Origin: a virus
Length of the DNA stretch: 37,572 bases
IMG/VR virus record: IMGVR_UViG_3300030090_005215
Location: 947 to 38,518 of that record
Strand: one strand, 5' to 3'
Made by a program: the position numbers and the translations under genes
Part shown: piece by piece, positions 2,291 through 24,788 of the stretch
Layout of the letters: each line of letters begins with the position of its first letter
Position numbering within the stretch: position 1 is the first letter of the stretch
The notes under the pieces: model-generated
Database searches by the model: none
The model's input: the letters and a program-made list of their open reading frames with translations, nothing else
Told to the model about the DNA's origin: nothing

Positions 2291-5200
2291 TTATTGGTGA
2301 GCATAACATTTTTTATTTTTATTCTCAGTCTTGTTTTTACATCTATCGCCATTACTTTTTATAGCTATACATCTATATTCTTTTATTCCATCACCATCTG
2401 TATCACTGCCATCTATGAATGGTTTGTGATGAACACATAACCATGTTTCATCTGCCGTTTCTGTAGTATTACCACATCTTTCACCGTTTGATCTAATACC
2501 AGAACACCTAATAGTTTTAATTCCTTTTTCTTTCTTTTCCTCTTCTTCTTTCTTCTTTTCCTCTATTTTTTCTTTTTCTTCTTCCGCTTTCTTTTCTTCT
2601 TTTTCTTTTTTCTTTTCAGCTTCTTTCTTTTCTTTTACTGCCTCTTTTGCTTCTACAACTTCCTCGTCTTCAATTCCTAATTGCCACCTGTTCCAACCTA
2701 AAAACATAGCAATTCTTTTCCATGTTTCATGGTTACCCGTTATAGCCTCTTCTAAGTTATTAGCTTTATTAAGTAATCTCATTAAAGGAATATTAGTAGT
2801 AGCCTCTATAATGCTAGCCCATTTTTGTAGTTGTGGATTTTCTATTCTAAAGCCTAATTCACCTGCTATACCTTTATTATATTTTTCCGAATAATAAGCA
2901 TTCATTATTTTTCTTACTTTACTACCTATTGGAGGAGAAAGATTTATTACTTCTAATATTATTTTTTCAGGCGCGTCTTGTCCATAACCTTTTTTAGACT
3001 GCAAGTGCCATTGTATTATTGTGTTTTTAAGTGTTGATACTAAAGCTCCATATAAACCCGTGCCTCTTAAAAAGCTATCTAAAGCACTATTAAATGTTCT
3101 AGTAGTTCTGTCATCTATATCTTCTTCGTCTTCTCCCCACATCATAAACGCTAATCCATTTTGTAATGCGGCAAATATTATATTATTTACAAAGCCATAA
3201 AAAAGTATTTTTGATATATTAGTCTTCATATCACCTCTACGATTAACTAAATCAGATAATGCTTTTTTATTTAATCTTCCGTACTGCATTGTAACATTTT
3301 GGAAAGCTAATATTAATCTACCTAATACGCTAGCTTGCTGTTGAGATACAAGATCTTCTCTAGAAGATTGTTGTGTTTCTTCCGCTATCTCTTGAAATTC
3401 CAACATCGTTCTCTCTTTAGCTTTAATTGGAGACATTCCTTGTTTAATGTATTTATTGTATCTATTTCTATAAAAAGATGCACCACCAAAAGCAATAGCA
3501 AAACTATCTGCTATTTGTGTAGGTAAAAAACCTTTTTGTAATAAATAACTAACAACAGTAGCAGGATTGTATCCATTTTCAGCAAAAGTTTTTGTTAATT
3601 CAGCTGCTGATACATCTGTTTGCAAACCCTTTCTTCTTTGTTTTAATTGAGGAGAATTAAATAACATTACAAAATCTTTCCAAAACTGAGGCTGATTAGC
3701 AAATGCGGCAGACGCTTTAAACATATTATTGTCTGACCAATTAATAAAGTTTACCGTAGACATTGTTTGTAGTAAAGCAGACCTCATATTAAAGAACATA
3801 ATCGCACCAATAGATCCATTTATCCAATCAGTGAAATCGTTAACCATTTTATTACTGCCTTGCTTTCTATTCCCACCAAACTCCATACGATATAATATAT
3901 CTTCTAAAGCTGATCTAAAGCTAGTTCCATATATAGCTTCAATTTTGTTTAAATTTTCTTTTGAGAATATTATATCTTTATTATCAACCCATTCTTGTAA
4001 AAATTCTTTTCTACCAATTTTATCAACAACGTTTCTTAAATCAGTTGGTATACTTTCCATCATCCAATTTTTACTAGGATTAACATATCCTTCTTTTCTA
4101 CGAGTTAATATTGATAAGCCATTAGCAAACGCTTTTATATTAGGATTTTTGTTTACGTGATTTACTAATTTAGTTTGTAATGATTTTGATATACCTGGTA
4201 TTTCAACACCCATTTTATTCCATAAATAAACTCTAATAGCCGTGTCGTTAGTAAAACTTGTATTAGGTACTTTATTATTTAGTTTAATATTAGGAAATCT
4301 TTTTCTTAAAGCATTATATTCATTAACCATATTTTGCTTGTAATTGTTCCAGTTTCTTATACCTTTTGCAAATGGTTTAAACAACGTGTTTTCAAAAAAC
4401 CTTAAATCAGCTTCACCCTGCTTACCTTTTCCTAAGAAATAATACATTAATCCTTTAAAATCCTCAGCTGATGGTGGTATATATATATCAAACTTCCATT
4501 TAGCACCTCGCTTTCTAGCTTCGGCAGAAGAAAATCTTTTATTAGCAGCGACGCCCTTTTTTCGTTCAATCATTTCATTAAACTCTCTGTTAATAGTTGC
4601 ATCAGGATCTGGTTCAATTATTTTACTATAAGAAGCGTCATTTCCAGGTTTTAAGTTTCTATTATTTTTGTTTAATTTAGCTTGAACAACTTTTGATTTA
4701 ATATCTAATTGATCTAAAACATTTTTAACAGCATCAACGTTTTGTATAGCGTCATCAACAAAGTACATATCATTGTATCCTTCAGCAAATTTATCTAACA
4801 TCCATTGAGCCTTAGCGTCACCAGTACTATTTGCTAGCCCAGTTATATTTTTTATTGGTATATCCAAACCTTGTCCTTTTAAAAACTGTTGTATAGCAAA
4901 AGCAGACTCTTGTGGTCTAGCCGTTAAAACGAACATGTCTTTTGTACCAAACTTTTTAGCTCTCTTTCTAGCTTTTTCAAGTAATGGACCTGGTGTACCA
5001 TCAACAACTTTATTAAATTCTGAGAAATCAAATGTTGCTCCTTGGTCTAATAATTCACCACCTCTACTAGCAAACTCTTCAGCTGTTAATCTACCTTTAA
5101 TGTATGAATTAGAAAAATCATTTATTTTATTAACAAACCCTTTAGGTAAAGGACTTCCTTGTTTTAATCTATTAGTGTTAATTTCAGCAAAGTTTTTACC

Positions 5201-8200
5201 AAACTCTTCTTTAAAAGCTTTTTTATTTTTTTGTACAGCCTTCCAGTTACGCTCAACTATAAAATCTTTTAATGATCTTTCTTCTCTAGCTCTATTTCTT
5301 TTTAATGCCGTTTCTAGTGAACTATCTACAAATATCATTTGAACATCATACCCAGCATCTTTAAACTTTTGTACTTGAGTAAACATTGATATAGTGCTCG
5401 CCCCAGTTCCATCTACTACAACGCCATCTCCTCTACCTTTGAATTTCATTTGTTTACGCTGTGCTATATCTCTAGCTTCCCATTGTAAGCTACCCCATTT
5501 ACTAGCTTGTTCAGGCGTAAAATCCCTCATGTTAGTAGGTAGTCCAGAGTTTTTTACTAACCATTCTAATGATATGTCTTGATTAACTATTTTATATCCT
5601 TGTCCTTCTAAATCTAATTGCTTTACAACATTTGATTTACCACTACCAGCGCTACCAGCTAAGAATATAACTTTTCTACCAACAGCAGACTCTCCAGTGT
5701 TGTTTGGCATAGTATATCTAACACCTGATTTCGTTCTAGCTAACGTATCATCAAAATCAAAAGTAGACATACCTTTTACCTCTTTAATATCTTTACTGTT
5801 TCTATTATTTAAAAGATCATTTAATTTAGCAGTTGTTACCCCCTTTTCACTTACTTTGTCTATAGAGTTTATACCATCTATCTCTAATTGACTAATTGTT
5901 TCAGCGGCTTCATCTTTTGTTATTTTGCCAGTTGCTACCTCTACTACTAAATTATTTTGAAACTCTATTATAGTTGGCGTTATATCACCCTGTTTAGCCG
6001 TTATATTAACACCAAATTCTTGAGCCACTGTTTTACCAGTAGGAGCCCAAACTAAATTATTTAAATTAATATATTTTGTTTTACCACTATGTTGCTGTGG
6101 CACTGCATATCTAACAAAAGTTGACAAACGAGGATCTATAGATAATTTTCCATCTATAATAGCTTTAGTTACTTCTTTATAATATATTTCTGGGTGACCA
6201 TGTTTATATAATCCATTAACGACTGTATCATCAATTTTTGGCAAAGCGCCTTGTATTGTCCCTGCCTCTAATATTGGCCATATATTATCCACTATATTAG
6301 CTCTAGCTGCGTTAAGCCCTATATTACCAAATTCTTTCTGGGCAGAAGCGTGTTCTTCTACTACCTCTACTTTGAGATCTATATTACCATCTTTATTTAT
6401 AACATAAAATAACGACGGAACTTGAATTCTAGTATAAGCGCCACTTTGATTACTAGTGGTATTACGTAGTATTTCATTAAATACCACAAAGTCATTTGGA
6501 TTATCTTTTAAATAAATTTCTAAATTTTTATAATACTTATATAAAACTAAAGGTCTATTATTTTTAATATCTTCTTTAATTTTCTTTATAGTATTTTTAG
6601 TTTGATATTTTTTAGACGTGTATTTATTTCTTGGATAATAACTTTGTTTAATCTCTTTTCCGTTTTTATTTTTTGGAATTTTACCAAACTTAGCCTCGAA
6701 CTCAGCTTTGGTACCATGTATTGTACGCGTTATGCTACCTGTTGTTGTATAGTATATTAAATTGTAATCTTGTGGGTTTAATTCTAAGTATTTTTTAGTA
6801 GCTTGATCTATGTGTTCTTGTTGTGTAATATTCAAAAGATTACCATCTCTATCTTTAGCAAATTGCGATATTGCTGTTGGGTCTATAAATGGACTTTCTC
6901 TTTCAACTCCTTTCTCGTCAACAAAAGTCATTTTAACTGTTTCAAAAGTTTCAGTTGGAGCTTGCTTTAATTTATTAAATTCTTTACCAGGATTGTTATC
7001 AAAGGCCTGACTATACATAGTTTCAGATTTACCATCTTTTAATTTAGCTATAATACTAGAAGATGCTAAATTATTTTGTACAGCATTTAATCTTATTTCT
7101 TGGTTAGCGGCTAATTGTGCTATTTGGATTATTAACTCTCTAATTGCTCCATCTGCTTTAGTACCTGGTTGCAAAGATCCATCAGCATTTATTCCAAATA
7201 AATCTAGTAATTCTTCTTTAGTAACATCAACTCTTTTATCTTGAGCAAACTTTTGTCCTAAATCTTTTCTTGCTCCTTCTTTTACTGTTAATCTTTCACC
7301 TTTAGTATAAAATTGTCCAAGTTTTGTATTTGCTATACCAGTAGCCCTACCATCTCTATCTTGACCCTCTGGTAAAGCATTAAAAAGATTTTCATTATAA
7401 GATCCATCTTCATTTGTAGTTTGTGAAAATATATATTCTTGAGCAGCTTTTCTTTGTGCTCCATTTAAATCTTGTTTTGCTAGTATTCTAAGTGGATCAA
7501 CCCCAAATTCAGTTGATATAGCATTTAATGTTTCAAATAAAGGTCCAGTTGGAACAACATTTTTCTCTGAAGTAGCCTTACCTTCCATAGATAATATTAG
7601 ACCTCTAATACCTTTATATGTTAAACCATCCAGTATTACGTCAGCAGACGCTATATTTTGTTTTACGGCTTGCTTAACATCATTTGGTAGATTAAGCATT
7701 TCCATGACCATTGTTAAATCTCTAACATCTTTTATAGATTCGTCTTTAATTTCAGTTGACATGTCAGAGTTTTCTATTTCATCTATCATCCTGTCTTTAT
7801 CAGCCTCTAAAATATCCACATAACTTTGTCCTTCTGTTGTTTGCCTGTCTATAGACCGCCTACCTGTACCACCTTCTTTTTCAACATAATCTTTTGAAAC
7901 ATCTTTTTTAGCATGATACAAAACGCCATTTTTACCAAATAAATAACCTGCAGCGCTTTCGTTTTTTGAAGGATCAAAGTTTTTTAACCATCTCTCTTGA
8001 AGATTATCTTTTACTTTTCTTATGTAGTCTTGTTGTGCTTCAAAAGGTAATCCTTTAGGATCAAAATCCCCTTGTTCTTCTAGTATTCTACTATCTAAAG
8101 AACCTTTACCAGATTCCGCAATGTATTGCCATACAGCAACATTATCAGCTTGACCTCTTTCTTGCCATTCTTTTTTGTTTTTATATTTTTTAGAACCATC

Positions 8201-11200
8201 CTCGTTTCTAGTGTGCTTATCATATTTATTTACTATTTCAGGATTATTTTTCATCCACTCAGCAGTAGACATGCTATAAGTAATCAAACTTTCTTTATCT
8301 TGAGCCGTTTTAGCATTTTCAAATAAAGTACCTTTAGCTCCTTTTTCCATCAAACGAGCTATAGCTTTACTAGGTCTATTTTTCTTAATAGAATAACTAT
8401 AATCTTTTAAGAAGTTTTTAATATCATTGGCATTATTAAATTTATAATCAATACCAAACGTATTCATGGACCACCTTCTAAACATATCAGCTAAATCAGT
8501 TAGTATATTTGATTCTATCTGTACGTCATCTTTAACTAACAATTCTGATATTAACGCTAACTTTTCCTCACCTCTGTGATTTATATTATATTGAGCTATT
8601 TTCTTATTGTATAAATTTTGTTTATTACCAAATGGATCATTTTTAAAAGTTATACTAGCGTCATCTAATAGAGCATCAATCGCGCCTCCCACGTTTACTC
8701 TCATAGCGGGATCTGACTTTAAAGTATTAGCAAATATAGCGTGTGTTATTTCATGAGCAACTGTTGCCCAAGCGCCGTCTTTTATAGCCTTTTCTTTGTT
8801 TATAACTATTTTTAACTTTTCTATTTGATTAGTGTCCTTATTATATATTGGCACCATTTTTCCATAAGCATTAGTACTTAATATATTGTTACCAATAAAT
8901 ACATTTCTAGATATATCCCCATCTATAGCTATTTTATTTCTAGCATCATCTTTATTTTCTTTTTCCTTGTTTATTATTTCTTTTTGTTCGTCTACTTTTT
9001 CTTTTTTATTTGTTTGCTCTTGTTCTATTAGAGTTGTTTGTTCTTTAATAAAATCATTTTTTTCAGAAATAATATTATCAATTTCAATTTTTACGCCATT
9101 TATTAATATGGTTTTTCTTGATTGTGATATTTTATTATCGTTTGTAATTTTGTTTATATCTTCAAAAAGATTTTGAATTTTTGTATCAAAAATATTACCT
9201 TCAATTTTTGTATTATTTTTTATATTTTTAATATTGTTAGAAGCATTTTCTTTTATATTTTCTATTTCACTTTTTGCATTAGTTATAGCATCATTAGATT
9301 TTTCTATAGCTTCTTCATAAGCGTCAAGTTGAGCTGAGTTATCTAAAACAACATCCTCAAACTCTTCTCTAGTTACAGCACCATCTTGGGTGTCTGTTAT
9401 TTCTTCTGTTATAAAACCATCATTATTTGTTTCTACTAATTCTACAGGAATATTATCAACTAGTTCTAGTTGAGACAGCCCAGCTTTAATAACGTTTTCG
9501 TAATGAGAGTCAACATCTTCTTTTTTTACAGTATCTAATATAGCTTGTTTTTGTGTAGTATTATTTTCTACTTCTTTTTGAATATCAAGCGCTTCTTTAG
9601 TTTTTCGCTCAAGAGACATTGTAGGATGTGCCCATATTCTATCTATTTCTTTTTTAGCACGTGAGTTATATTCATGTATTTCTATAAGTCTTCTTTTTTG
9701 TTTGTTACTAAGTAAGTCTACTTTGTAACAATCTCTTGTTAGTAGTAATTCTATTTCTACACCATAATTATCAAACTCTTTTTGTATTTGTTCTTTTCTT
9801 TTATCGGTTATATTCTTACTATCTAACTCCGCAGTTAATTTTATTAATTCAATATTTATATCTGATAACCTAGCATTTGTACTTTGAGAAACAAAAGGAT
9901 CTACAAACGCAGATTTAAACATAACTGGTGAGTGTAAAAATCCTGATAAAAATGCTCCATTAATAGCCGCTTCATCTATTCCATCAAAAAATGTTGCTCC
10001 ATCTACACCTGTTAGCACATCCATGTAATTTTCGGTAATTTGTGTCATAACCTCTGAAAATGCCTCTGAACTCATATTAAAACCTAGTTTTCCAGTTGTG
10101 CCTAGTAATCCTTTAGGACCGTATAACTCGAAAAGCTTATTTGCAAATTTTTTATCAAATCTACAAGACTTCATCATTTCTTTTTTGAAAGAATTGACGG
10201 CACCAGGTCTTGTTTTAAAATACTTCAACGCTCTTATTTGTCCAAATGTTACTCTTTCCCAAAAAGCTTCACCAAGACCAGTAACCATAGCATTGGAAAA
10301 CATTTCAAGAAAAGTAAAGCTTTCACCCTGCTTACCTCCTGTTGCTACGTATAAATTATTTTCCCTACGCATGTGATCATATTTTTCAGCAGCTGTGTAT
10401 GTAAACATAACTGACAAAGACCTTCCTTTACTTAACATTGCTATAGTTATAATAGGCACGTATTCAGTCATGCTAGTAAACAAGTAATCAAACATATCTC
10501 CAGCAGACCTAACATTATTCCACGTTGTCTTTGCCCTTAAGTCGCTTCTCCACGCGTCACTTTTAGCTTTAACATCATTACCAAAATCATCAGCCCAATC
10601 TTCTATATCTTGTAATATTTTAAAACCAATGGATTCTTTATCAAGTATTCCAGTTTTTTCAAAAACAGCTTGTGCTATATCTGATGTTGATGCCGTTAAA
10701 GAGGCAAAGCCGCCATAAACAGTATCCCAAATAGCGGCACCAAGGTTTGTTCCATAATATGTTCCTGGCGCATATTTTTTTCCAATTAATTCAGATAAAA
10801 CATCAAGTTCAACTTCTTCAATCGCAAGTTTATCAAGCTCTTGTACGGCCTCATTGTATATTTTTTGATTAGCTGGTAAAGTTTCTTTAACTAATACGAG
10901 TAGTTGATTATATAAATTAGAATATTCTAACTCGTATTCACTTATCTCGCTTTTAATAACCGCATTAGTTAAAACGCCAGTTTCAAACCATTGACTTTTT
11001 AATTGAGGATATTTTTCTGTTAATTGCTCCATAAACTCATTTGGAGAAGGCATATCCGCAATTTGTTTTTCTATGTCAGCAATATTATCATGTACTTCAG
11101 TTATATTATTATATGCAATATCTAATTTAATTATACCTTCAGAATATTCTACTATATTTTCTTGTACTTTTTTATTAATAGCTTTCTCGGTTAAACCTTT

Positions 11201-13702
11201 CCATTCTCCTTCTGAAAATAAATATGCAGACGATTTTTCTATTTGATCTTTTACGTTCTCTGTTAATATTTTTACTCTTTGGTTATTAAGAAACTGTGTT
11301 TGAACAAAATCTTTTTTGTCTTTTAAATAAACTTCGTCTTCATATAAAGATACTAATACTCCTTTAAATGCATCGGAACTTATTAATCGATCATAAGCAT
11401 GTTTATAATCTGGATTGTTTTTAAGTTCGTCCCAAGATATATTCATATCAGGACCTCCTCCAATAATATCTCTAGGTGAACTATATAGTGATTGTATTTT
11501 TTGATAAGCATTAGCCTCATCATATGACGCGCCTATTGTTAATATCTCGAATTTAGTTTCCCTTTTAGTAAGCGGGGTATAAACACTATCAAGAGAATCA
11601 AACTTAACTCCGCCCAACTCTAAAACTGTTTCTCCAAAACGAGACGCGACGTCTCCACCTTCTGATATAAACTCAGTACCGACTATTAAGTCAAAAGGCT
11701 CGTCTTCTTTAGTATAAGTATCATTATAAAATGAAGAACTATAATAATCTAAAAGATCTTTATCTGTAATTAATTTATTAGGTGATATGATGAATCCGGA
11801 TTCACTTTGACTGCTCTCTCTTAAATTAGAAAATTCAAGTAACGACTTTTCAAACGTCATGTTGATATAATTTCTTTCGTCTATATTTATATCAGATAGT
11901 GTTAAAAGCGCATCATCTAATGTACCAAGATTATAACTATCATGTGCTATTGACGTTTTTTTTATGTACTCATTAAACTCGTTCATAGCTTTACGCATGC
12001 CCTTTTCGTTTGTTTCAGAGTATCCAACTTCAATATATGTAGTGGCCATTTCTTTAGCCTTTTCCCAAGTTATTGTTGCTCGATTTTGACCAAACTGATC
12101 TGTTTTGAAACTGCCTTCATATATAAACCTAGCATAAGGTTCAGAATATAATTTTATTGTATTTATACCTTTTTCGTTTGATTGAAATATTTGCCATCCG
12201 TTTTTGTATAACCAAGCATTCATAGCGTCAACAATACCTTCTTCACTATATGAGAATATATAGTGATCAAACCGAGCATCTACTTGCCCGGGCGAATAGT
12301 CGTCATATGTGGATACTGAGTTAGGAAAAAGATGACTCCAGTCGTTAAAATCTTTGATTAACATATTGTTATCAAGAAAAACTTCGTTTGTGTAATTTTT
12401 CTTAACAAAATCATTATAATTTTGAAAGCTTGTGTTTTGTTGTTTAGAGTAAATAACGTCGGATTCTTTTACTTCAATAGGCGTTTCTAATTGAACTAAC
12501 TCATCAGTAGCAGGGTTATAAGCGTGTGTACCAGCAAATACCTTATCTCTAACTTCTTTATTTCTTAAGTGATCTTTTTCGTCCCAATTTGAAATATGTC
12601 CATATATATCAAATGATAAATAACCACTATAATGTTGGCCATATAATTGATACTGTCCTAAAGGAGCTAAACTATCTGGCGTGCTTTTATTTTCGTATAA
12701 ATCAAGATACTCATTCCATTGAAGACCATAGAGCTGTATAGCATTTATTTTTTCATCATATTGTATAATTCCATCTTTATTAAGATCAAGAAATTTTTCT
12801 TGAAATAAATTAGAATTTATATCAACAAAGTTAGCTGTTTTAATTTGATTATTCCAAACGCTAGCCTCAGAACGTAAATTCCAGTAATCTGGGGCATTAT
12901 TTAAATTAATAAACTGATCTGGTGACGTCCAAGCGAAATCATAACCATCTCCTATAACGTAAGACGTTATATCATTATTACTAATTATTCTATCCGAAGT
13001 AGTATCACTTTGCTTATCAGGGGCGTTATCCCATATTTCTGGAGAAACAAAGTATGGTCTAAAAGAATTCGCTGAATCCATACCATATATTTCTGTCCAA
13101 CCAAAAGTGTTTTCTACCTCAGGTATATTTATTTCAGTGCCGTTAATATTATCAAAAATTAAACCCTTATCTTTTGCTTCTGACTCTAATACAAAAAAAT
13201 CTACCATAGCTCTTTCAGACTCCATTTTAAGCATTCCCTCATCATCATAAGTTCTAAAACTATCAAATCCGGGTGCTTTTATTTTTACGTATGTTTCTCC
13301 GTTATAATCGTACTTATTTAATTGCGGCGCTACCACATTAATATCTTGTAGCATAGAATCAGGGGTTTCACCTGTTATGTTTGTAAGATCTAATTCTCTA
13401 TTTAAAGGTTCTACAACTTCTGGTTCAGCATCTTTCGCTTCTCCCCATTGATCAACTTTTGGATTTAACCAATTTATTGTTCTTTCTTTAGTATTCTTAA
13501 GTTTTTGTGAAAAGTTTTTTAACTTACTTTTAGCGAGTTCTTTTTTAGTAAGCCCACCAGGAACGGCGTCGTATTCTGTATTTGGATTTAACTCTAGCGT
13601 AGCAGTTAAACCCTGTTCTTGTGTTTTTTGTAAAAAATCTGATTCGTCTTCTGGTAAAACCGTTACTGTCTTACCATTAGATAGTTTGTATATTTTTCCC
13701 AT
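2291..13702 (-). CDS. Giant multidomain virion/ejection protein (3803 aa), T7 gp16-position
   Basis: About 30% of the window. Visible parts in order: an EF-hand-like loop DLNKDGIIQYDE (306-317); long helical stretches; a hydrophobic region near 1080-1105 with a conserved-looking helical domain to ~1250; a Lys/Glu coiled coil ~1400-1600; a zincin motif HEITH (H1650, E1651, H1654); a segment resembling sigma-70 region 2 (around N1908-F-D-P); a long unassigned region; a HAD phosphatase motif DFDDT (2649-2653) interrupted by a P-loop kinase (GSAGSGKS, 2683-2690), with HAD motifs resuming at T2927 and DD2983-2984; helical membrane-active regions ~3290-3320 and ~3488-3515; an E/K-rich linker ~3680-3730; and two CCCH repeats at the C-terminus. 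It follows two small ejection-type genes, in the T7 gp14-15-16 order, so it is probably a capsid-internal protein delivered with the DNA. T7 gp16 is about 1300 aa. Its start is not preceded by a Shine-Dalgarno sequence. The individual motifs are clear; the ejection role is inferred from position. Confidence 0.85.
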   Translation of the reverse strand: MGKIYKLSNGKTVTVLPEDESDFLQKTQEQGLTATLELNPNTEYDAVPGGLTKKELAKSKLKNFSQKLKNTKERTINWLNPKVDQWGEAKDAEPEVVEPLNRELDLTNITGETPDSMLQDINVVAPQLNKYDYNGETYVKIKAPGFDSFRTYDDEGMLKMESERAMVDFFVLESEAKDKGLIFDNINGTEINIPEVENTFGWTEIYGMDSANSFRPYFVSPEIWDNAPDKQSDTTSDRIISNNDITSYVIGDGYDFAWTSPDQFINLNNAPDYWNLRSEASVWNNQIKTANFVDINSNLFQEKFLDLNKDGIIQYDEKINAIQLYGLQWNEYLDLYENKSTPDSLAPLGQYQLYGQHYSGYLSFDIYGHISNWDEKDHLRNKEVRDKVFAGTHAYNPATDELVQLETPIEVKESDVIYSKQQNTSFQNYNDFVKKNYTNEVFLDNNMLIKDFNDWSHLFPNSVSTYDDYSPGQVDARFDHYIFSYSEEGIVDAMNAWLYKNGWQIFQSNEKGINTIKLYSEPYARFIYEGSFKTDQFGQNRATITWEKAKEMATTYIEVGYSETNEKGMRKAMNEFNEYIKKTSIAHDSYNLGTLDDALLTLSDINIDERNYINMTFEKSLLEFSNLRESSQSESGFIISPNKLITDKDLLDYYSSSFYNDTYTKEDEPFDLIVGTEFISEGGDVASRFGETVLELGGVKFDSLDSVYTPLTKRETKFEILTIGASYDEANAYQKIQSLYSSPRDIIGGGPDMNISWDELKNNPDYKHAYDRLISSDAFKGVLVSLYEDEVYLKDKKDFVQTQFLNNQRVKILTENVKDQIEKSSAYLFSEGEWKGLTEKAINKKVQENIVEYSEGIIKLDIAYNNITEVHDNIADIEKQIADMPSPNEFMEQLTEKYPQLKSQWFETGVLTNAVIKSEISEYELEYSNLYNQLLVLVKETLPANQKIYNEAVQELDKLAIEEVELDVLSELIGKKYAPGTYYGTNLGAAIWDTVYGGFASLTASTSDIAQAVFEKTGILDKESIGFKILQDIEDWADDFGNDVKAKSDAWRSDLRAKTTWNNVRSAGDMFDYLFTSMTEYVPIITIAMLSKGRSLSVMFTYTAAEKYDHMRRENNLYVATGGKQGESFTFLEMFSNAMVTGLGEAFWERVTFGQIRALKYFKTRPGAVNSFKKEMMKSCRFDKKFANKLFELYGPKGLLGTTGKLGFNMSSEAFSEVMTQITENYMDVLTGVDGATFFDGIDEAAINGAFLSGFLHSPVMFKSAFVDPFVSQSTNARLSDINIELIKLTAELDSKNITDKRKEQIQKEFDNYGVEIELLLTRDCYKVDLLSNKQKRRLIEIHEYNSRAKKEIDRIWAHPTMSLERKTKEALDIQKEVENNTTQKQAILDTVKKEDVDSHYENVIKAGLSQLELVDNIPVELVETNNDGFITEEITDTQDGAVTREEFEDVVLDNSAQLDAYEEAIEKSNDAITNAKSEIENIKENASNNIKNIKNNTKIEGNIFDTKIQNLFEDINKITNDNKISQSRKTILINGVKIEIDNIISEKNDFIKEQTTLIEQEQTNKKEKVDEQKEIINKEKENKDDARNKIAIDGDISRNVFIGNNILSTNAYGKMVPIYNKDTNQIEKLKIVINKEKAIKDGAWATVAHEITHAIFANTLKSDPAMRVNVGGAIDALLDDASITFKNDPFGNKQNLYNKKIAQYNINHRGEEKLALISELLVKDDVQIESNILTDLADMFRRWSMNTFGIDYKFNNANDIKNFLKDYSYSIKKNRPSKAIARLMEKGAKGTLFENAKTAQDKESLITYSMSTAEWMKNNPEIVNKYDKHTRNEDGSKKYKNKKEWQERGQADNVAVWQYIAESGKGSLDSRILEEQGDFDPKGLPFEAQQDYIRKVKDNLQERWLKNFDPSKNESAAGYLFGKNGVLYHAKKDVSKDYVEKEGGTGRRSIDRQTTEGQSYVDILEADKDRMIDEIENSDMSTEIKDESIKDVRDLTMVMEMLNLPNDVKQAVKQNIASADVILDGLTYKGIRGLILSMEGKATSEKNVVPTGPLFETLNAISTEFGVDPLRILAKQDLNGAQRKAAQEYIFSQTTNEDGSYNENLFNALPEGQDRDGRATGIANTKLGQFYTKGERLTVKEGARKDLGQKFAQDKRVDVTKEELLDLFGINADGSLQPGTKADGAIRELIIQIAQLAANQEIRLNAVQNNLASSSIIAKLKDGKSETMYSQAFDNNPGKEFNKLKQAPTETFETVKMTFVDEKGVERESPFIDPTAISQFAKDRDGNLLNITQQEHIDQATKKYLELNPQDYNLIYYTTTGSITRTIHGTKAEFEAKFGKIPKNKNGKEIKQSYYPRNKYTSKKYQTKNTIKKIKEDIKNNRPLVLYKYYKNLEIYLKDNPNDFVVFNEILRNTTSNQSGAYTRIQVPSLFYVINKDGNIDLKVEVVEEHASAQKEFGNIGLNAARANIVDNIWPILEAGTIQGALPKIDDTVVNGLYKHGHPEIYYKEVTKAIIDGKLSIDPRLSTFVRYAVPQQHSGKTKYINLNNLVWAPTGKTVAQEFGVNITAKQGDITPTIIEFQNNLVVEVATGKITKDEAAETISQLEIDGINSIDKVSEKGVTTAKLNDLLNNRNSKDIKEVKGMSTFDFDDTLARTKSGVRYTMPNNTGESAVGRKVIFLAGSAGSGKSNVVKQLDLEGQGYKIVNQDISLEWLVKNSGLPTNMRDFTPEQASKWGSLQWEARDIAQRKQMKFKGRGDGVVVDGTGASTISMFTQVQKFKDAGYDVQMIFVDSSLETALKRNRAREERSLKDFIVERNWKAVQKNKKAFKEEFGKNFAEINTNRLKQGSPLPKGFVNKINDFSNSYIKGRLTAEEFASRGGELLDQGATFDFSEFNKVVDGTPGPLLEKARKRAKKFGTKDMFVLTARPQESAFAIQQFLKGQGLDIPIKNITGLANSTGDAKAQWMLDKFAEGYNDMYFVDDAIQNVDAVKNVLDQLDIKSKVVQAKLNKNNRNLKPGNDASYSKIIEPDPDATINREFNEMIERKKGVAANKRFSSAEARKRGAKWKFDIYIPPSAEDFKGLMYYFLGKGKQGEADLRFFENTLFKPFAKGIRNWNNYKQNMVNEYNALRKRFPNIKLNNKVPNTSFTNDTAIRVYLWNKMGVEIPGISKSLQTKLVNHVNKNPNIKAFANGLSILTRRKEGYVNPSKNWMMESIPTDLRNVVDKIGRKEFLQEWVDNKDIIFSKENLNKIEAIYGTSFRSALEDILYRMEFGGNRKQGSNKMVNDFTDWINGSIGAIMFFNMRSALLQTMSTVNFINWSDNNMFKASAAFANQPQFWKDFVMLFNSPQLKQRRKGLQTDVSAAELTKTFAENGYNPATVVSYLLQKGFLPTQIADSFAIAFGGASFYRNRYNKYIKQGMSPIKAKERTMLEFQEIAEETQQSSREDLVSQQQASVLGRLILAFQNVTMQYGRLNKKALSDLVNRRGDMKTNISKILFYGFVNNIIFAALQNGLAFMMWGEDEEDIDDRTTRTFNSALDSFLRGTGLYGALVSTLKNTIIQWHLQSKKGYGQDAPEKIILEVINLSPPIGSKVRKIMNAYYSEKYNKGIAGELGFRIENPQLQKWASIIEATTNIPLMRLLNKANNLEEAITGNHETWKRIAMFLGWNRWQLGIEDEEVVEAKEAVKEKKEAEKKKEKEEKKAEEEKEKIEEKKKEEEEKKEKGIKTIRCSGIRSNGERCGNTTETADETWLCVHHKPFIDGSDTDGDGIKEYRCIAIKSNGDRCKNKTENKNKKCYAHQ

Positions 13703-17858: not shown

Positions 17859-20800
17859 TTATGATGGTGGTATATAAGTTTCTTCAAAATCCGCAGCAGT
17901 CTCTTGCATATTATCATAATTTTGGTATTGACTTATATAAATTAAGAAATTGTAACTATTATCAGTATTACCATTTTCCACTACTACTGCTGGATAATAA
18001 CCCAGTGCTAAACCAGTTATAAAAGGATCGTTTGTAGCAACTTCAACTAGTTCACCATCTATATTTTGACTAACGTAAATAGAGTAAGTTTCAAGAAACT
18101 GGGATGAGCTTGTTTCGCCATTTATTGAATTAAATTGTATAGCATATGTACCAGAAATTGGCCCATATAATATAGTATAAACAACGCTATCTGGACCTAA
18201 CTCTGTTATTGGTTCTTCAAATATTTCTATTCCAGCTTCAGTTTGCGTCTCCGTGTCAGAAGAAGGAGTAGCACCAATAAGAGATGGAAACCCTATACCT
18301 TGAACAAAGAGTTCTTCAACATGCTCTTCAACAGCTGTTAAACCACTATCATCATTTCTAATTCTATTAAACCATTTATTTTCCTTTTTTATAAACTCCT
18401 TTATATCACCGGATTGCATGTCAGTATTAATATAATCTAAGTACCATCCTTGCGCTCCTTCTAAATTGTAGTAATCACCATATACGAATACGTTATCAGA
18501 ATTAGCATTGTTAAGGGGTACTGAATTACCTAAAACGTCAAAAGTATTAGAAGTTGACACATTACTAGATTCTATTATTCTACTTTGACTACCTTCATAA
18601 TTCATTGCATGAAACGATTTAACAACACTTGGTAAATCGTTAAATACTATTTCAATTTCAGAATTGTAATAATCATTATAAAAAGTATTTCTAGCGCCTA
18701 CACCATGTTGATATATCCAATGTGTTCCTCCACCGCTAAGAGATCTTTTATGTACATTATTTGATGCTGTAAAATATTTACCACTTATTGATACTCCACA
18801 ATCAATTATAAAAGACTTGAAACTAACCCAACCTTTAGATCCTTCATTAAAAGAAACTGTTATAGGTTCCTTTTGTGATACCTCGTTAAAATCTAATGTT
18901 ACGTTATACTCTCCGTTTAACCAATCAAATGTACCAACTATATTATTACAATCACTTAAATTTTCTCTAAACCAAGTCTTCATTCCTACACTAGAAATAG
19001 GCGTTAACCCATCTTGTGATAATCTTAATACCGCTCCTCTTTGTTTATCAGTAAAGTACATTCTATATTGATCCCAAGCTAGTGATTCTGGATTCTTTGA
19101 TATCCCATAATCTCCAGCAAATGGTATTGTTTGCCCAAGCACTTTATTCGTAGCTGTCAATTGTGTGTTTCCATCAGCGTTGAATACAGCGTCTTTATTA
19201 GCCAATATTTTTAATATTTTATCCTCACAAAAAGTAACTAAATCGGTATCCCTTGTTTTTAACGCTTGTATAGAACCATACACGGGATTTAAATTTTTTG
19301 TTATTTTTTGAGCCATACTAAACTCATTTAATCCATTAACGCTAGATGTATCATTATATAAACCTGATGAATGTATTAATCCACTACTTATAGTTTCTTC
19401 TTTATAATCTAAAAATGTTGATGATGCTTTAAATCCATTATCTATTTGTGGAGCATTAAAATCGTCTCTAATTCTATCTGACTCAACACCATTTCCAAAT
19501 GAATAGCAATTAAACCAATTTAATTCAACTGGGTATTGCCAAACTTCAGTATCTATTTTATAATAACCAGTTGTTTTTACAATGCGAAAATTTTGTTCTA
19601 CTGTATAATTTTGCTCAACATCTTTACTTAATCCAAGGCCTATAAGAAAATTATTTCCTACTGGAACAGGGCCAAGCACAGAGGTTAAAAAAGTTCCTTT
19701 TTCTAAGTTTGATCCAAAAACTTCACTACCAATATTATCAGTCATTAAAGCTATTTCTTGATTAGCTCCACCTAAACTATTAATTTGATAAACTATTAAA
19801 CCAAATTGAGGGCTATCAACACCTCCTAAAGCAGATGAAAATACCACAGCAAATCTAGTCCATCTATCAGAAAGTACCATTGCTCTTGCGATATCTTCAT
19901 CAGAATCTTCAAATACCACTGGTTGCATGTGCTCTAAAATCTTAGATTGAGTAACTAGACCATTAGGGTGTTTAAATTGAATTAAATCATCTATAGCAAC
20001 ACCATTCGCTATAGATTGACTATTTCCATCAAAAATGTTATTATCTCCATTATTACCTTCAATTAAGTTACTTGCAGAAAAACCGGAAATTATTGTTTCA
20101 ATATTATTAGGAGGCGAACTCCAACCAACTCTAACATCAATAATATTATTTGATATAGTACTATATACCCTTGCGGTTTCGTCTAAATCAACATTTTCCA
20201 CAAAAGGTATAGATGGCGACGCTCCACCATCTACCATAATTTCGTACTTTCTAGGTAATATACTTACTCTGCTAGCTAATTTGCCGTTAGTACTTGGCTT
20301 TGTAAAAGTATTTATATTACCTTCAGTATTTAACTTCATAGGTATAGCATTACTAGCCTCATAATATATATCTATATCTATATTTTCTTTTGGTTCAGTT
20401 TCAAAGCAAGCCTTACTTGTAACCACACCATCTTCTATCACACCATTTGCTCCAACCTGCTCTAGTATTTGTATTACCATAGACCCAGTTCCATTGTGGT
20501 TTACTGTTCCCCTTGGATCCCAATCTTCAACATTTATTCCAATTCCCCCATACCCTGTTGCAATACCTGCAAATTGTCCACCGTAATTAGGATCATACAT
20601 CTCTACTCCAGTATCTAGGTCTATTCTAACAAATCTAGTTATTATAGAACTTCTTTTAGCTGATGGATCGTTAGTATTTGTTATATCAGTACCGTAAGTA
20701 TGATTAGATATATTATCTATATCTACAGTTCCAAACCACTCTTGATCTGGCTCATCTCCAGGGTTGTAATCAAGCATCCAATGTAACATAATTATTTTAT

Positions 20801-23800
20801 AAACACACTGTTCTGGATCATCTTGAAATCTAAAAAAAGTACCGGGTGTTTGCATTGCTGTTTTAAATTCTCCAGCTTCTCCACTCCAAGGACTTGCTCC
20901 AACATTAGAAAGAGTTAATTGCCCTAAAGTACCATTCGCCGCCACACCTTGTGATAAACCATTTGGATGGTAATTTCTATATAAACCCTCTTCAGCTAGT
21001 AAATCAAAAGGCAGCGGAGCAAGTTCGTTAGGTTTAGCGTATATTTGATTTTCCGGTTGTAGCACACTTATTGGACCATTGAACATCTGGCCACCCCAAG
21101 CGGGTCCAGCAGTAATATAACTGTTGTTTTTTATAGCGCCAATAAAAAATGGTAAATCATATTCAACTCCATTGCCAGATGGCACCATGTCCGGAAATTC
21201 TCCTATATCACCAAACCAACCAGCATCTTCACCTCCTTCTAACACCCAACCTCCAAATGGCACAGTAACTATTTTATTAAAACCATGACGAGCCGAAGCC
21301 TCATCAATAAATATCTTTGGAGTATCTGGATCATTATACCAGGTGTTCCAGAAATTTGATGTACGTGGTTCAGAAAAGCCGAAAAACGGAACAGCACCGC
21401 CATTAAATACAGCATCTTCATAGTCAGTTGCACCACCTGTAAAAACCAAAAATTCTTGATTTTCTGGATCCCCGTCTGAATTATACACACTTGTGTCTAG
21501 TATAGAACCGTTAGTTATACCGCCATAAGATGTCCATAATTGACTTACTGTATCACTAAAATTTTCAGCAGGACTAAACTGAGTACTAGCTATATAGCCT
21601 ATTTCATATGCAGCTAAAGGACTGTATGCTATATTACCAGCTTGTGTAACAACTTTTTCAGATAACATATCGTCTATTGAAACTTTTACAAAAAATCTTC
21701 CATCAAACTCAGGTTTATTTTCCACAACCTCATCTCTAAATTCCATATAGTATTGTATATAAGAATCAGTATCTGATGGGTTATCAACGTTAGCTTGGTT
21801 TATTGTATTATCTAAAATAATTAAAGAAGCAAAAAGGTTAACCTCTGCTCCCGTCCAAGCTTTTGCAATATCACAGCCATGTGCAACAGCAGCATAACCC
21901 TCAGATAATGGTAATTGTATTTTAGAAACAGTTCTCCAAGGGCTTTCAGCTCTTATTGATGTATTTGACGCTTTTTCAGCTACTATTCTAACTTTTGGAG
22001 TACCTTTAAAACTTTCTCTTGTTATAGGTTTATCATTCCACGATTGTGGATCTGTTCTTATTTCTAAAGTATCAATTAATCCTATGGGCACAGTACCTGA
22101 TCCAGAAGGGCCATATACTCCTGACAGACTTATTTTTATTTTGCCCATTGTCCTATAATCAGTTTTTATATAATCTGGAGCTTCATTTTCTATAGCTAAT
22201 ATCTTATATCTAGCCTTTTCTACAACAGGACTTTGTGAGCCATGCTCATTTTTAAGTATCAGATAAGTTTCTTCATCAACTTTATTTCTATCAACAGATG
22301 GAAATGATAACCATATAGTCGAGTCACCAGCATCGTACCACCTATCTAATATTAAATTATAATATTCATTAGAAGTTTCTTTTATATAATACTTAGCATA
22401 CTCCATCCATGCTTCAGGTTCATTAACCCAACTTTGTGTTACTTTAAATCTATTACTAAGATGTGCTAAGCTTTTTTCTACGGTAACGTCACCACTTAAA
22501 ACACCTCCCATATTTGTTTTTGCCCCTCCTGCTAAAACTGGTGTTTCTCTTCCATACTTATCACCAAAAACCACACCCCATTTGTAATTCCTTATAGATT
22601 TTAAAGATTTTTTAGGTATAGGAAAAGTTACAGCTTCCGATAATATTGTCTGTTTTAAGCTAACAACATTTTCTATATTATATCCTTGAGTGTAGTTACC
22701 ATAAACAAGTCTACTACCTGTTATTTCTTGAGTTAAAGCTTTTTTAGGTACATTATCCCAATTTCTTAGGGCTTGATCTGAAGATAAAGTCCTATGTATC
22801 ATTTCTGACGTCATTATTAATCTACCTGTATTTTCAATATCATTAAGATCCCATTCGCTATCTCTAGCCCTTGTTATGCTTTTTATTACGTAAACATTTT
22901 GATCATCCGTTGTTTTCCACAATATGTCTATCTTTTTAACATCACTAGGTCTTACAGAGTCATCTGGTATAAAATCACTTATTTCTAATTGTCTGACTTT
23001 ATTGGACATACCCTCATTATAACCATCTTTAGCTGAATAAAGAAAACCACTTGGTAAAAAAGCTAACTCAGACCACGGAGAGAATGAAGAGTATTCGTTA
23101 TCTTCATATTGATATCTATATCCAACTCTACCAAACTTTGTTTCAAATAAAGGATCTTCTTTTTCTAAATTAACATTCCAATTAGTAGGCTCTTGTAAAC
23201 TTAAACTTTCGCTAACGAATATTATCTGTAATTCAATTGTATCACTTTGAGACTCATAATCGGTTACCCTAGCAGTAACTATAGCTGGATTTAGATTATT
23301 ATCCGCATTAGTGAATCTTAAAACATCGTTAATTCTAATATCGATATTTATAAGTACAGAATTGGTTATTGTTTTTATATCACCAAATTGAGTGGTTATT
23401 TCACCCTCAGCAATCATATTAAAATTTTCAATTGTAAAACTTGTCGCTGATGTTCTAGTAGTATCCCTCATGGTTAAATGAGGAGCGGTAATTGGGGCTT
23501 TTTTTATTACAGTGACATTTTCTTTTTTAATATCTGAAGTTTTTAAGCTCCATTCTAATTCAGATGCTAAAACAAATTCTGGTGTACCAGTTATGTTTGT
23601 ATTGTTTACAAAAATTTTTGTGTGTTTAGGAATTTCTAGATAACTTTCTGCCGTTTGCTCGATATTAGGATAATCCTCCATAGCATCGATAATAGTACCT
23701 TTTTTAGATCTTGTTATATTAATTTTTTTTGGTTCATTATTACCATCTGTATAAAATATTGAATCATGAATTATATTAATATTTGGTATTAATTTATTAT

Positions 23801-24788
23801 AATCAAATTCTAATACTCTTTCTGGATATATAAATTTAAAAGCACTTTGCCAAGTTATATTATTGTTATCAAACTCTTGTTGTAAGTCTACTGCTTGTGG
23901 AGATGATAAGTATAATAAGTTATCTTGTATATCTAATATTTTAACACCAAATTCACCATTTTCATCAAAAAATTGATGTTCTCCTTCATTATTATAAAGA
24001 TATACAGTCATACCTATTCTATATGCACTTCCATCAAAAACTGGTAGCACACTAAAACCAGATGTTGGTAGCGGAGGAGTGATTCCCATTCCTGGACTTG
24101 GGTGCATAACATCAACCCATCTTCCAGTAATACCAAATAAATCAACAAATATAGGTGTTCCACGTCCTTCCATAGGGATATTTCCTTCTGCGTTAATAGT
24201 AGCATCTATTTCTATTATACTATCTACCCAATATTTTAAAAAATAATTACTTTGATATAACTGCGAAGCGGCTCTTGCGCTATCTAAGTCACTATTTGGC
24301 TGAAAGTCATCAAGATCTTCAATGCCAAAACCAATAAAAGTATCAGGCGTGTTTAAAATATTATTACCAGTTATATTATCTGTCCATGCTTGAGTGCGTT
24401 GTGCTTGATTAATTTGGTTATTCATTATATCGGTATAAGGAATATCTAATATTGTACCCACTAATGGAGCAGCCGCAAAGAAATAAGCTTTATCATTTTT
24501 TTCGTCTGAAACACATCCAACAAATTTCGTGTAAATAGCTGAAGTAGGTTGAGCCTCACTTATTCCCCCTTCCCAATCATTATAATCAGAAGTTCTGTAA
24601 GCCCTTGAATGTGGTTCGTTACCTTTTAAGTTTTGAACAACACCTGCATCACCAACGCCACTATAATCACCGTCAGTAGTTCTAACTTTTATATTTAAAG
24701 CATCTCTATATTCGCCGTTTTTAACAAGTCTCTCATCAAGATCCTTGTTCATTTTACCGGCTGTAAATGTTCTTTTAATTTCCGGCAT
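17859..24788 (-). CDS. Tail nozzle / 'stabilization' protein, strongly enlarged (2309 aa)
   Basis: The N-terminus has the conserved nozzle signature 'GKMNKDLDERLVKNGEYRDA' then 'LNIKV' (residues ~11-35). The C-terminal part (~1800-2070) has the beta-propeller-like tract typical of crAss-like 'stabilization/muzzle' and T7 gp12-like proteins: 'LKTRDTDLVTFCEDKILKIL', 'RMYFTDKQRGAVLRLSQDGL', 'KGWVSFKSFIIDCGVSISGK', 'IEIVFNDLPSVVKSFHAMNY'. In such phages this protein forms the tube tip below the adaptor rings, through which DNA passes, and anchors fibres. T7 gp12 is about 800 aa, so roughly 1500 residues of extra beta-rich, aromatic and Asn/Gly-rich material separate and follow the conserved ends. 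It starts 2 nt after the adaptor-like gene, with the start context GTAATTATG. The family call is from memory of motifs, the role from family and order. Confidence 0.8.
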   Translation of the reverse strand: MPEIKRTFTAGKMNKDLDERLVKNGEYRDALNIKVRTTDGDYSGVGDAGVVQNLKGNEPHSRAYRTSDYNDWEGGISEAQPTSAIYTKFVGCVSDEKNDKAYFFAAAPLVGTILDIPYTDIMNNQINQAQRTQAWTDNITGNNILNTPDTFIGFGIEDLDDFQPNSDLDSARAASQLYQSNYFLKYWVDSIIEIDATINAEGNIPMEGRGTPIFVDLFGITGRWVDVMHPSPGMGITPPLPTSGFSVLPVFDGSAYRIGMTVYLYNNEGEHQFFDENGEFGVKILDIQDNLLYLSSPQAVDLQQEFDNNNITWQSAFKFIYPERVLEFDYNKLIPNINIIHDSIFYTDGNNEPKKINITRSKKGTIIDAMEDYPNIEQTAESYLEIPKHTKIFVNNTNITGTPEFVLASELEWSLKTSDIKKENVTVIKKAPITAPHLTMRDTTRTSATSFTIENFNMIAEGEITTQFGDIKTITNSVLINIDIRINDVLRFTNADNNLNPAIVTARVTDYESQSDTIELQIIFVSESLSLQEPTNWNVNLEKEDPLFETKFGRVGYRYQYEDNEYSSFSPWSELAFLPSGFLYSAKDGYNEGMSNKVRQLEISDFIPDDSVRPSDVKKIDILWKTTDDQNVYVIKSITRARDSEWDLNDIENTGRLIMTSEMIHRTLSSDQALRNWDNVPKKALTQEITGSRLVYGNYTQGYNIENVVSLKQTILSEAVTFPIPKKSLKSIRNYKWGVVFGDKYGRETPVLAGGAKTNMGGVLSGDVTVEKSLAHLSNRFKVTQSWVNEPEAWMEYAKYYIKETSNEYYNLILDRWYDAGDSTIWLSFPSVDRNKVDEETYLILKNEHGSQSPVVEKARYKILAIENEAPDYIKTDYRTMGKIKISLSGVYGPSGSGTVPIGLIDTLEIRTDPQSWNDKPITRESFKGTPKVRIVAEKASNTSIRAESPWRTVSKIQLPLSEGYAAVAHGCDIAKAWTGAEVNLFASLIILDNTINQANVDNPSDTDSYIQYYMEFRDEVVENKPEFDGRFFVKVSIDDMLSEKVVTQAGNIAYSPLAAYEIGYIASTQFSPAENFSDTVSQLWTSYGGITNGSILDTSVYNSDGDPENQEFLVFTGGATDYEDAVFNGGAVPFFGFSEPRTSNFWNTWYNDPDTPKIFIDEASARHGFNKIVTVPFGGWVLEGGEDAGWFGDIGEFPDMVPSGNGVEYDLPFFIGAIKNNSYITAGPAWGGQMFNGPISVLQPENQIYAKPNELAPLPFDLLAEEGLYRNYHPNGLSQGVAANGTLGQLTLSNVGASPWSGEAGEFKTAMQTPGTFFRFQDDPEQCVYKIIMLHWMLDYNPGDEPDQEWFGTVDIDNISNHTYGTDITNTNDPSAKRSSIITRFVRIDLDTGVEMYDPNYGGQFAGIATGYGGIGINVEDWDPRGTVNHNGTGSMVIQILEQVGANGVIEDGVVTSKACFETEPKENIDIDIYYEASNAIPMKLNTEGNINTFTKPSTNGKLASRVSILPRKYEIMVDGGASPSIPFVENVDLDETARVYSTISNNIIDVRVGWSSPPNNIETIISGFSASNLIEGNNGDNNIFDGNSQSIANGVAIDDLIQFKHPNGLVTQSKILEHMQPVVFEDSDEDIARAMVLSDRWTRFAVVFSSALGGVDSPQFGLIVYQINSLGGANQEIALMTDNIGSEVFGSNLEKGTFLTSVLGPVPVGNNFLIGLGLSKDVEQNYTVEQNFRIVKTTGYYKIDTEVWQYPVELNWFNCYSFGNGVESDRIRDDFNAPQIDNGFKASSTFLDYKEETISSGLIHSSGLYNDTSSVNGLNEFSMAQKITKNLNPVYGSIQALKTRDTDLVTFCEDKILKILANKDAVFNADGNTQLTATNKVLGQTIPFAGDYGISKNPESLAWDQYRMYFTDKQRGAVLRLSQDGLTPISSVGMKTWFRENLSDCNNIVGTFDWLNGEYNVTLDFNEVSQKEPITVSFNEGSKGWVSFKSFIIDCGVSISGKYFTASNNVHKRSLSGGGTHWIYQHGVGARNTFYNDYYNSEIEIVFNDLPSVVKSFHAMNYEGSQSRIIESSNVSTSNTFDVLGNSVPLNNANSDNVFVYGDYYNLEGAQGWYLDYINTDMQSGDIKEFIKKENKWFNRIRNDDSGLTAVEEHVEELFVQGIGFPSLIGATPSSDTETQTEAGIEIFEEPITELGPDSVVYTILYGPISGTYAIQFNSINGETSSSQFLETYSIYVSQNIDGELVEVATNDPFITGLALGYYPAVVVENGNTDNSYNFLIYISQYQNYDNMQETAADFEETYIPPS

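Follow-up and report, generated by a model that had tools for sequence, protein, structure and literature searches.

A giant candidate ejection protein with a constant frame, exchangeable modules and a nested kinase-phosphatase in a marine podovirus

The 3803-residue protein encoded in the virus record IMGVR_UViG_3300030090_005215 is probably a polyvalent protein that is packaged in the virion and ejected into the host, working like the N4 vRNAP but with other enzymes in the place of the RNA polymerase. The giant would travel inside the capsid, where it would probably be the third protein of an ejection cassette (small, middle, giant), and would enter the host by threading through the short tail, together with the DNA or before it. 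Its C-terminal helical core, perhaps together with the zinc repeats, would serve as a constant packaging or assembly frame, while module M would contact or insert into the host membrane. The HExxH peptidase would release the cargo by cutting the chain, either while still in the virion or once inside the host, and the cargo would then act within the first few minutes after infection begins. In this phage it would include a HAD phosphatase with a nested polynucleotide-kinase-like domain and three further modules.

The analysed window of 37,572 nt covers most of the 38,518-base IMG/VR record (positions 947 to 38,518), and the giant ORF takes up approximately 30% of it. As the first-pass annotation had reported without giving a strand, the reading frame is single and uninterrupted; it lies on the minus strand and runs from an ATG start with no internal stop (Table 1). 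Transcription passes through the terminase, portal, capsid and tail genes and the genes for proteins of 605, 143, 271 and 321 aa before it reaches the giant and then the 463-aa fibre-like gene, which agrees with the order proposed earlier (small hydrophobic protein, middle protein, giant, fibre-like protein). The start MKWIGQHIW of the fibre-like protein was also found downstream of the giants in L113, L114, L115, L119 and L159 (L-numbers label the related sequences compared in this analysis), with C-terminal parts of differing length; the fibre-like proteins behind the giants combine a conserved N-terminus with a variable tail.

Table 1. Features of the giant protein and its neighbours, with positions in the window.
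Feature	Residues	Position	Strand	Basis
Giant ORF, putative virion polyvalent/ejection protein	3803 aa	2291..13702	-	ORF and collinear 3789-aa homologue L113/L137
N-terminal region	1-800	11303..13702	-	only in source phage and L113/L137
Module M, helical, conserved hydrophobic stretch near 1082	1047-1403	9494..10564	-	common to giants of phi38:1, phi13:2, elemoA
Zincin-like metallopeptidase, HEITH 1650-1654 and distal Glu	1631-1790	8333..8812	-	motif conservation
Optional module P2	1809-1982	7757..8278	-	profile search of giants
Optional module Q, helical	2058-2232	7007..7531	-	profile search of giants
Optional module R, invariant Glu-His and Arg	2295-2605	5888..6820	-	profile search of giants
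HAD-superfamily phosphatase, split by kinase insert	~2643-3010	4673..5776	-	motifs, predicted fold
Polynucleotide-kinase-like P-loop kinase nested in HAD, Walker A GSAGSGKS	2676-2864	5111..5677	-	Pfam, predicted fold
All-helical C-terminal core, conserved anchor of the family	3037-3695	2618..4594	-	alignment, predicted fold
Two C-C-C-H zinc-binding-like repeats	3732-3803	2294..2509	-	recurrence in giants
Protein at T7 gp15 position	321 aa	13731..14696	-	homologues sit directly upstream of other giants
Protein at T7 gp14 position, one strongly hydrophobic stretch	271 aa	14708..15523	-	profile homology
Fibre-like protein after giant gene	463 aa	602-1993	-	N-terminus MKWIGQHIW

Terminase and capsid proteins group the phage with Bacteroidetes podoviruses (Flavobacterium Elemovirus, Cellulophaga Callevirus of the Pervagoviridae and Baltivirus of the Pachyviridae) and with the circular metagenomic genome MW202828; the host of this marine phage is probably a Flavobacteria-type bacterium. 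Giants occupy the equivalent locus in elemoA of Flavobacterium (3694 aa), phi38:1 of Cellulophaga (1691 aa), phi13:2 (1990 aa) and MW202828 (3859 aa), and in related IMG/VR contigs the locus is taken up by a single ORF of 2150-3860 aa, in a few cases truncated by the contig end (for L127, the longest ORF listed is a tail gene and not the giant). Searching IMG/VR with the C-terminal alignment yielded at least 517 encoding stretches, and the 80 stretches fetched contained 66 complete giants of 2248-4134 aa (median 2938), each in one ORF.

Profiles made from each stretch of the window protein and searched in all giants revealed a constant module order of M, metallopeptidase, P2, Q, R, kinase and HAD/core, with a variable N-terminus ahead and often CCCH zinc repeats behind. 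Among 67 giants, the HAD/core was present in all 67 and the peptidase in 65, followed by Q (37), M (25), the kinase (13), R (12) and P2 (10), where the counts for diverged modules vary with the sensitivity of the profiles and represent lower bounds. The N-terminal region is regarded as variable because of its narrow distribution (Table 1). PDB sequence searches with the core, M, Q and R returned no convincing match, P2 had neither a Pfam family nor a convincing PDB match, and the predicted structure of the M-peptidase-P2-Q region (mean pLDDT 74) had no PDB match. By eye, P2 resembled sigma regions 2/3; this assignment was rejected, with Pfam empty, no sigma factor in the PDB sequence search and a probability of 0.6% in hhalign comparisons with four E. 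coli sigma factors.

The metallopeptidase that had been proposed from the HEITH motif is well supported. All 31 aligned relatives have HExxH together with a Glu that follows it by approximately 60 residues, and HExxH itself occurs in 65 of the 67 giants. The pattern fits the zincin-like MPTase described for polyvalent proteins (PMC5512222); a PDB sequence search with the peptidase gave no convincing match. Such a conserved HExxH...E peptidase would also suit a polyprotein that cleaves itself before packaging and is present in the virion as several separate proteins. P1 DdrB is processed before packaging (PMC5512222), and L159 (~7994-8066) and L208 (~9959-10011) each have two overlapping ORFs in place of a single giant one, with the break just ahead of the HAD/core. 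However, a frameshift error, a programmed frameshift and a true split are all conceivable for these two, and they may reflect sequencing errors. No cleavage site is visible within the giant, and the vRNAP of N4 enters the particle uncut, with its HExxH domain still in place (PMC5512222, PMC12633501). We consider early self-cleavage possible but somewhat unlikely; apart from the timing, it is compatible with the ejection of a polyvalent protein.

With regards to the smaller features, residues 306-317 (DLNKDGIIQYDE) have the sequence of a canonical EF-hand-like loop, but this 12-residue loop is absent from the closest relative, L137, and the EF-hand module was rejected as not conserved. Membrane-active helical regions had been proposed as well. 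The hydropathy of the giant shows modest peaks, with a maximum of 1.32 over 19 residues, and no canonical TM helix was found, although one peak, at residue 1082 in M, recurs at the same place in relatives and reaches up to 1.67 there. The zinc repeats, in turn, proved recurrent, with C-C-C-H repeats in 51 of 94 giants versus 0.15 expected from shuffling. One or two copies stand at the extreme C-terminus in L114, L115, L119, L125 and others, and the repeats possibly act as an assembly or DNA-binding tag.

The HAD phosphatase carries motif I as D2649-F-D-D-T2653, the motif II threonine T2927 in LT2927ARP and motif IV as VD2983-D2984. Motif I (DFDxT) was found in 67/67 giants and motifs II and IV in 66, the region being interrupted in L210. 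In 13 of the 67, the window protein included, a kinase lies inside the HAD domain at a constant position. The Pfam matches of the window kinase to AAA_33 (3.5e-9) and Zeta_toxin (1.4e-7) are both above the Pfam cut-off. Motifs I and II are mostly 77-80 residues apart where the kinase is absent and exactly 277 apart in all 13 giants that have it, indicating a clean insertion. Both units are removable: L123 retains the kinase but lacks the remainder of the HAD domain, and L124 lacks both. An AlphaFold model of residues 2640-3700 (76 sequences, mean pLDDT 79, pTM 0.55) shows both folds, and its best PDB matches were Clostridium polynucleotide kinase, T4 PNKP and Pnkp1, followed by zeta toxins and adenylate kinases; T4 PNKP and Pnkp1 align over both domains. 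The features of a polynucleotide kinase-phosphatase are present, namely a PNK-fold kinase with Walker A and a HAD domain with the DxDxT, Thr and DD motifs. The HAD/kinase module of the first-pass annotation is retained on the strength of motifs, Pfam and T4 PNKP/Pnk folds, as one nested unit and not as two neighbours. T4 Pnkp likewise joins a P-loop kinase of PNK fold to a HAD phosphatase, but its domains stand in tandem, whereas here the HAD domain hosts the kinase as an insertion and the pair belongs to a giant protein of virion type.

Most simply, by analogy, the HAD-kinase unit would be an end-healing enzyme for RNA or DNA breaks. T4 PNKP heals tRNA cut by host anticodon nucleases. Since most relatives keep the HAD domain without the kinase, the main substrate of the HAD domain may be a different one. 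Alternatively, the kinase might phosphorylate UDP-sugars in the manner of zeta toxins and so weaken the wall of the host, in keeping with the Zeta_toxin match and with the occurrence of zeta kinases in polyvalent proteins of phages and conjugative elements (PMC5512222). This is rather doubtful, as AAA_33 outscores Zeta_toxin, the fold is nearer to PNK than to zeta (target-normalised TM of 0.73 and ~0.49, respectively), and the kinase is always nested in a HAD phosphatase, the partner that it has in PNKP. The Walker A Ser/Thr is replaced by Gly in 11 of 18 relatives, while the window protein keeps its Ser; the GGAGSGKG copies (L138, L140-L142, L144-L147, L149, L151, L185) are possibly inactive or altered kinases, judging by this motif. 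Both this loss and the resemblance to zeta toxins were counted against an ejected end-healing cargo. A stand-alone relative of the kinase was found in T4-like marine phages such as HTVC008M.

The C-terminal core of ~650 residues is all helical in the AlphaFold model. Its best viral structure matches were four uncultured-virus proteins of the giant family, one of them labelled UDP-N-acetylglucosamine kinase, followed by C-terminal chunks of very long phage proteins (E 1e-12 to 1e-6 over 700-1200 columns, TM ~0.3-0.45). Several of these chunks come from proteins whose BFVD labels mark them as polyvalent, among them 'large polyvalent protein associated domain' and 'ART-PolyVal'. We read this likeness of predicted folds as a common helical frame and not as proof of one family. 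Together with the swappable modules in constant order across the 66 complete relatives and the invariant HExxH...E, the polyvalent-like core fold was counted in favour of an ejected polyvalent protein.

Evidence for a location in the virion comes from GenBank. The records of the Cellulophaga phages phi18:3 and phi40:1 carry the note 'annotation based on experimental MS/MS proteomics analysis' on the giant of each (gp123 and gp101, respectively) and on its two upstream neighbours (phi18:3 gp120 and gp121; phi40:1 gp99 and gp100). The giant of phi18:3 is 87% identical to phi13:2 gp127, and that of phi40:1 is 99.9% identical to phi38:1 gp101. An M profile built without the isolates matched phi38:1 gp101 (E 2.4e-45) and elemoA gp21 (E 3.4e-43), values that are optimistic because the profile members were recruited in searches that included the isolates. 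The 271-aa protein is a profile homologue of phi38:1 gp99, elemoA gp23 and phi13:2 gp124, with phi40:1 gp99 and phi18:3 gp120 as its syntenic MS/MS counterparts; for the 321-aa protein, no sequence homology to its positional counterparts phi40:1 gp100 and phi18:3 gp121 was detected. Three relatives contain LPD14, and the giant of one (L176:1586-12445, plus strand) has a GH108 muramidase at its N-terminus, above the Pfam cut-off; both are expected of injected or penetrating proteins and were counted for ejection, as were the MS/MS giants at the same locus, the homology of M, the homologous small upstream gene, the late-gene position after the tail genes and the PNK-like fold of the kinase/HAD unit. 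This supports the virion-delivered multi-enzyme giant in the third ejection position that had been proposed from the sequence.

The window giant is linked to the giants with MS/MS annotation by M, position and the neighbour gene only. Profile searches detected none of the HAD, kinase, peptidase and family core in the giants of phi38:1, phi13:2 and elemoA, which was counted against ejection together with the lack of a canonical TM helix and of a visible cleavage site. A virion location, a large helical core and a near-universal peptidase would also be found in a passive structural or core protein of tape or scaffold type that stays in the particle and whose motifs serve assembly, for example the peptidase as a maturation protease. 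However, swappable enzymatic cargo, a PNK-type kinase, GH108 and LPD14 are atypical of scaffold proteins, and the third ejection gene of N4 encodes an ejected giant (PMC12633501), which makes a purely passive role improbable.

Iyer et al. had described injected multi-enzyme 'polyvalent proteins' in 2017 (PMC5512222), and N4 provides a known example of a giant enzyme that is ejected (PMC12633501); the 'undescribed system' initially claimed was thus too strong. As in those polyvalent proteins, many unrelated domains stand in one late-gene chain, here with peptidase, phosphatase and P-loop kinase motifs or folds predicted in a single ORF (two or more unrelated activities), and a zincin-like peptidase with HExxH and a distal Glu forms the hub. 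Some relatives share LPD14, one has a lysozyme-type domain, and the core fold recurs in BFVD proteins labelled polyvalent. Unlike them, the giant family has a fixed C-terminal frame and module order throughout, and named LPD families were not detected in the window copy; an LPD38 search of the window genome gave no match, its positive control giving no signal either. The terms 'phosphatase' and 'polynucleotide kinase' do not occur in the main text of PMC5512222. In N4, small and middle ejection proteins accompany a 3500-residue chain that is threaded through the tail and refolded, and that consists of a membrane-type N-terminal domain, an enzyme, a HExxH domain and a large helical C-terminal domain (PMC12633501). 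Crassvirus cargo proteins follow the same logic (PMC10172136). The layout of N4 gp50 (Schitoviridae) is alike in the third position after small and middle genes, the HExxH and the helical C-terminal domain, but the order of enzyme and HExxH differs, sequence similarity is at noise level, and no Pfam or PHROG match to a single-subunit RNA polymerase domain was found in the giant. Homology of M to N4 vRNAP was rejected (E 0.026 in a single comparison, with a second profile not separable from shuffled controls).

The giant family, its combination of a constant frame and interchangeable cargo, and the nesting of the kinase in a phosphatase appear to be undescribed, no description of them having been found in the open literature searched, the coverage of which was incomplete. 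Across hundreds of related phages the frame is retained and the cargo changes, and cultured relatives among Cellulophaga and Flavobacterium phages allow tests of packaging, tail threading, cleavage and cargo function. To our knowledge, detailed accounts of giant ejected proteins come mainly from N4, which delivers an RNA polymerase in this way, and few counter-defences of phages have been described for the very beginning of infection. It is at this stage that the nested kinase-phosphatase, as a repair enzyme brought in by the virion, would act. Tentatively, an abundant family of Bacteroidetes podoviruses might deliver an exchangeable enzyme kit on one threaded chain with a packaging frame, a self-cleaving peptidase and cargo slots, in which a PNK inserted in the HAD slot would heal ends against host RNA- or DNA-cutting defences before phage gene expression.

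The first-pass annotation had also placed the giant in the series of T7 ejection proteins. It does follow genes at the gp14 and gp15 positions, and one relative has an N-terminal peptidoglycan hydrolase, but a true gp16 orthologue enlarged by insertions is very unlikely: the giant is three times longer, hhalign of the core and M against gp16 gave a probability of ~1%, and no Pfam match to a peptidoglycan hydrolase or lytic transglycosylase was found in the window giant. The likeness to T7 gp16 is one of position.

That two genes were joined by an assembly error, or that the ORF is otherwise an artefact, can be practically dismissed, as nothing in its support was found and both a 3789-aa ORF from an independent metagenome (L113 and L137, the same contig fetched twice), collinear over the whole window protein at 49% identity, and the 66 complete one-ORF relatives contradict it. 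The giant ORF is not an assembly fusion.

Two further observations concern long virion proteins of this group. Residues 588-739 of phi13:2 gp127 (L131:26394-32366) are 76% identical to a structural protein of the crAss-like phage phi14:2, and residues 1088-1944 resemble a protein of the N4-like Pseudoalteromonas phage vB_Pun_Y3, matches that suggest module exchange between phage families. In the window, a 2309-aa tail protein (17859-24788, minus strand) matches PHROG 14478, virion structural protein, and is ~50% longer than its 1470-1610-aa counterparts in elemoA, MW202828 and phi13:2.
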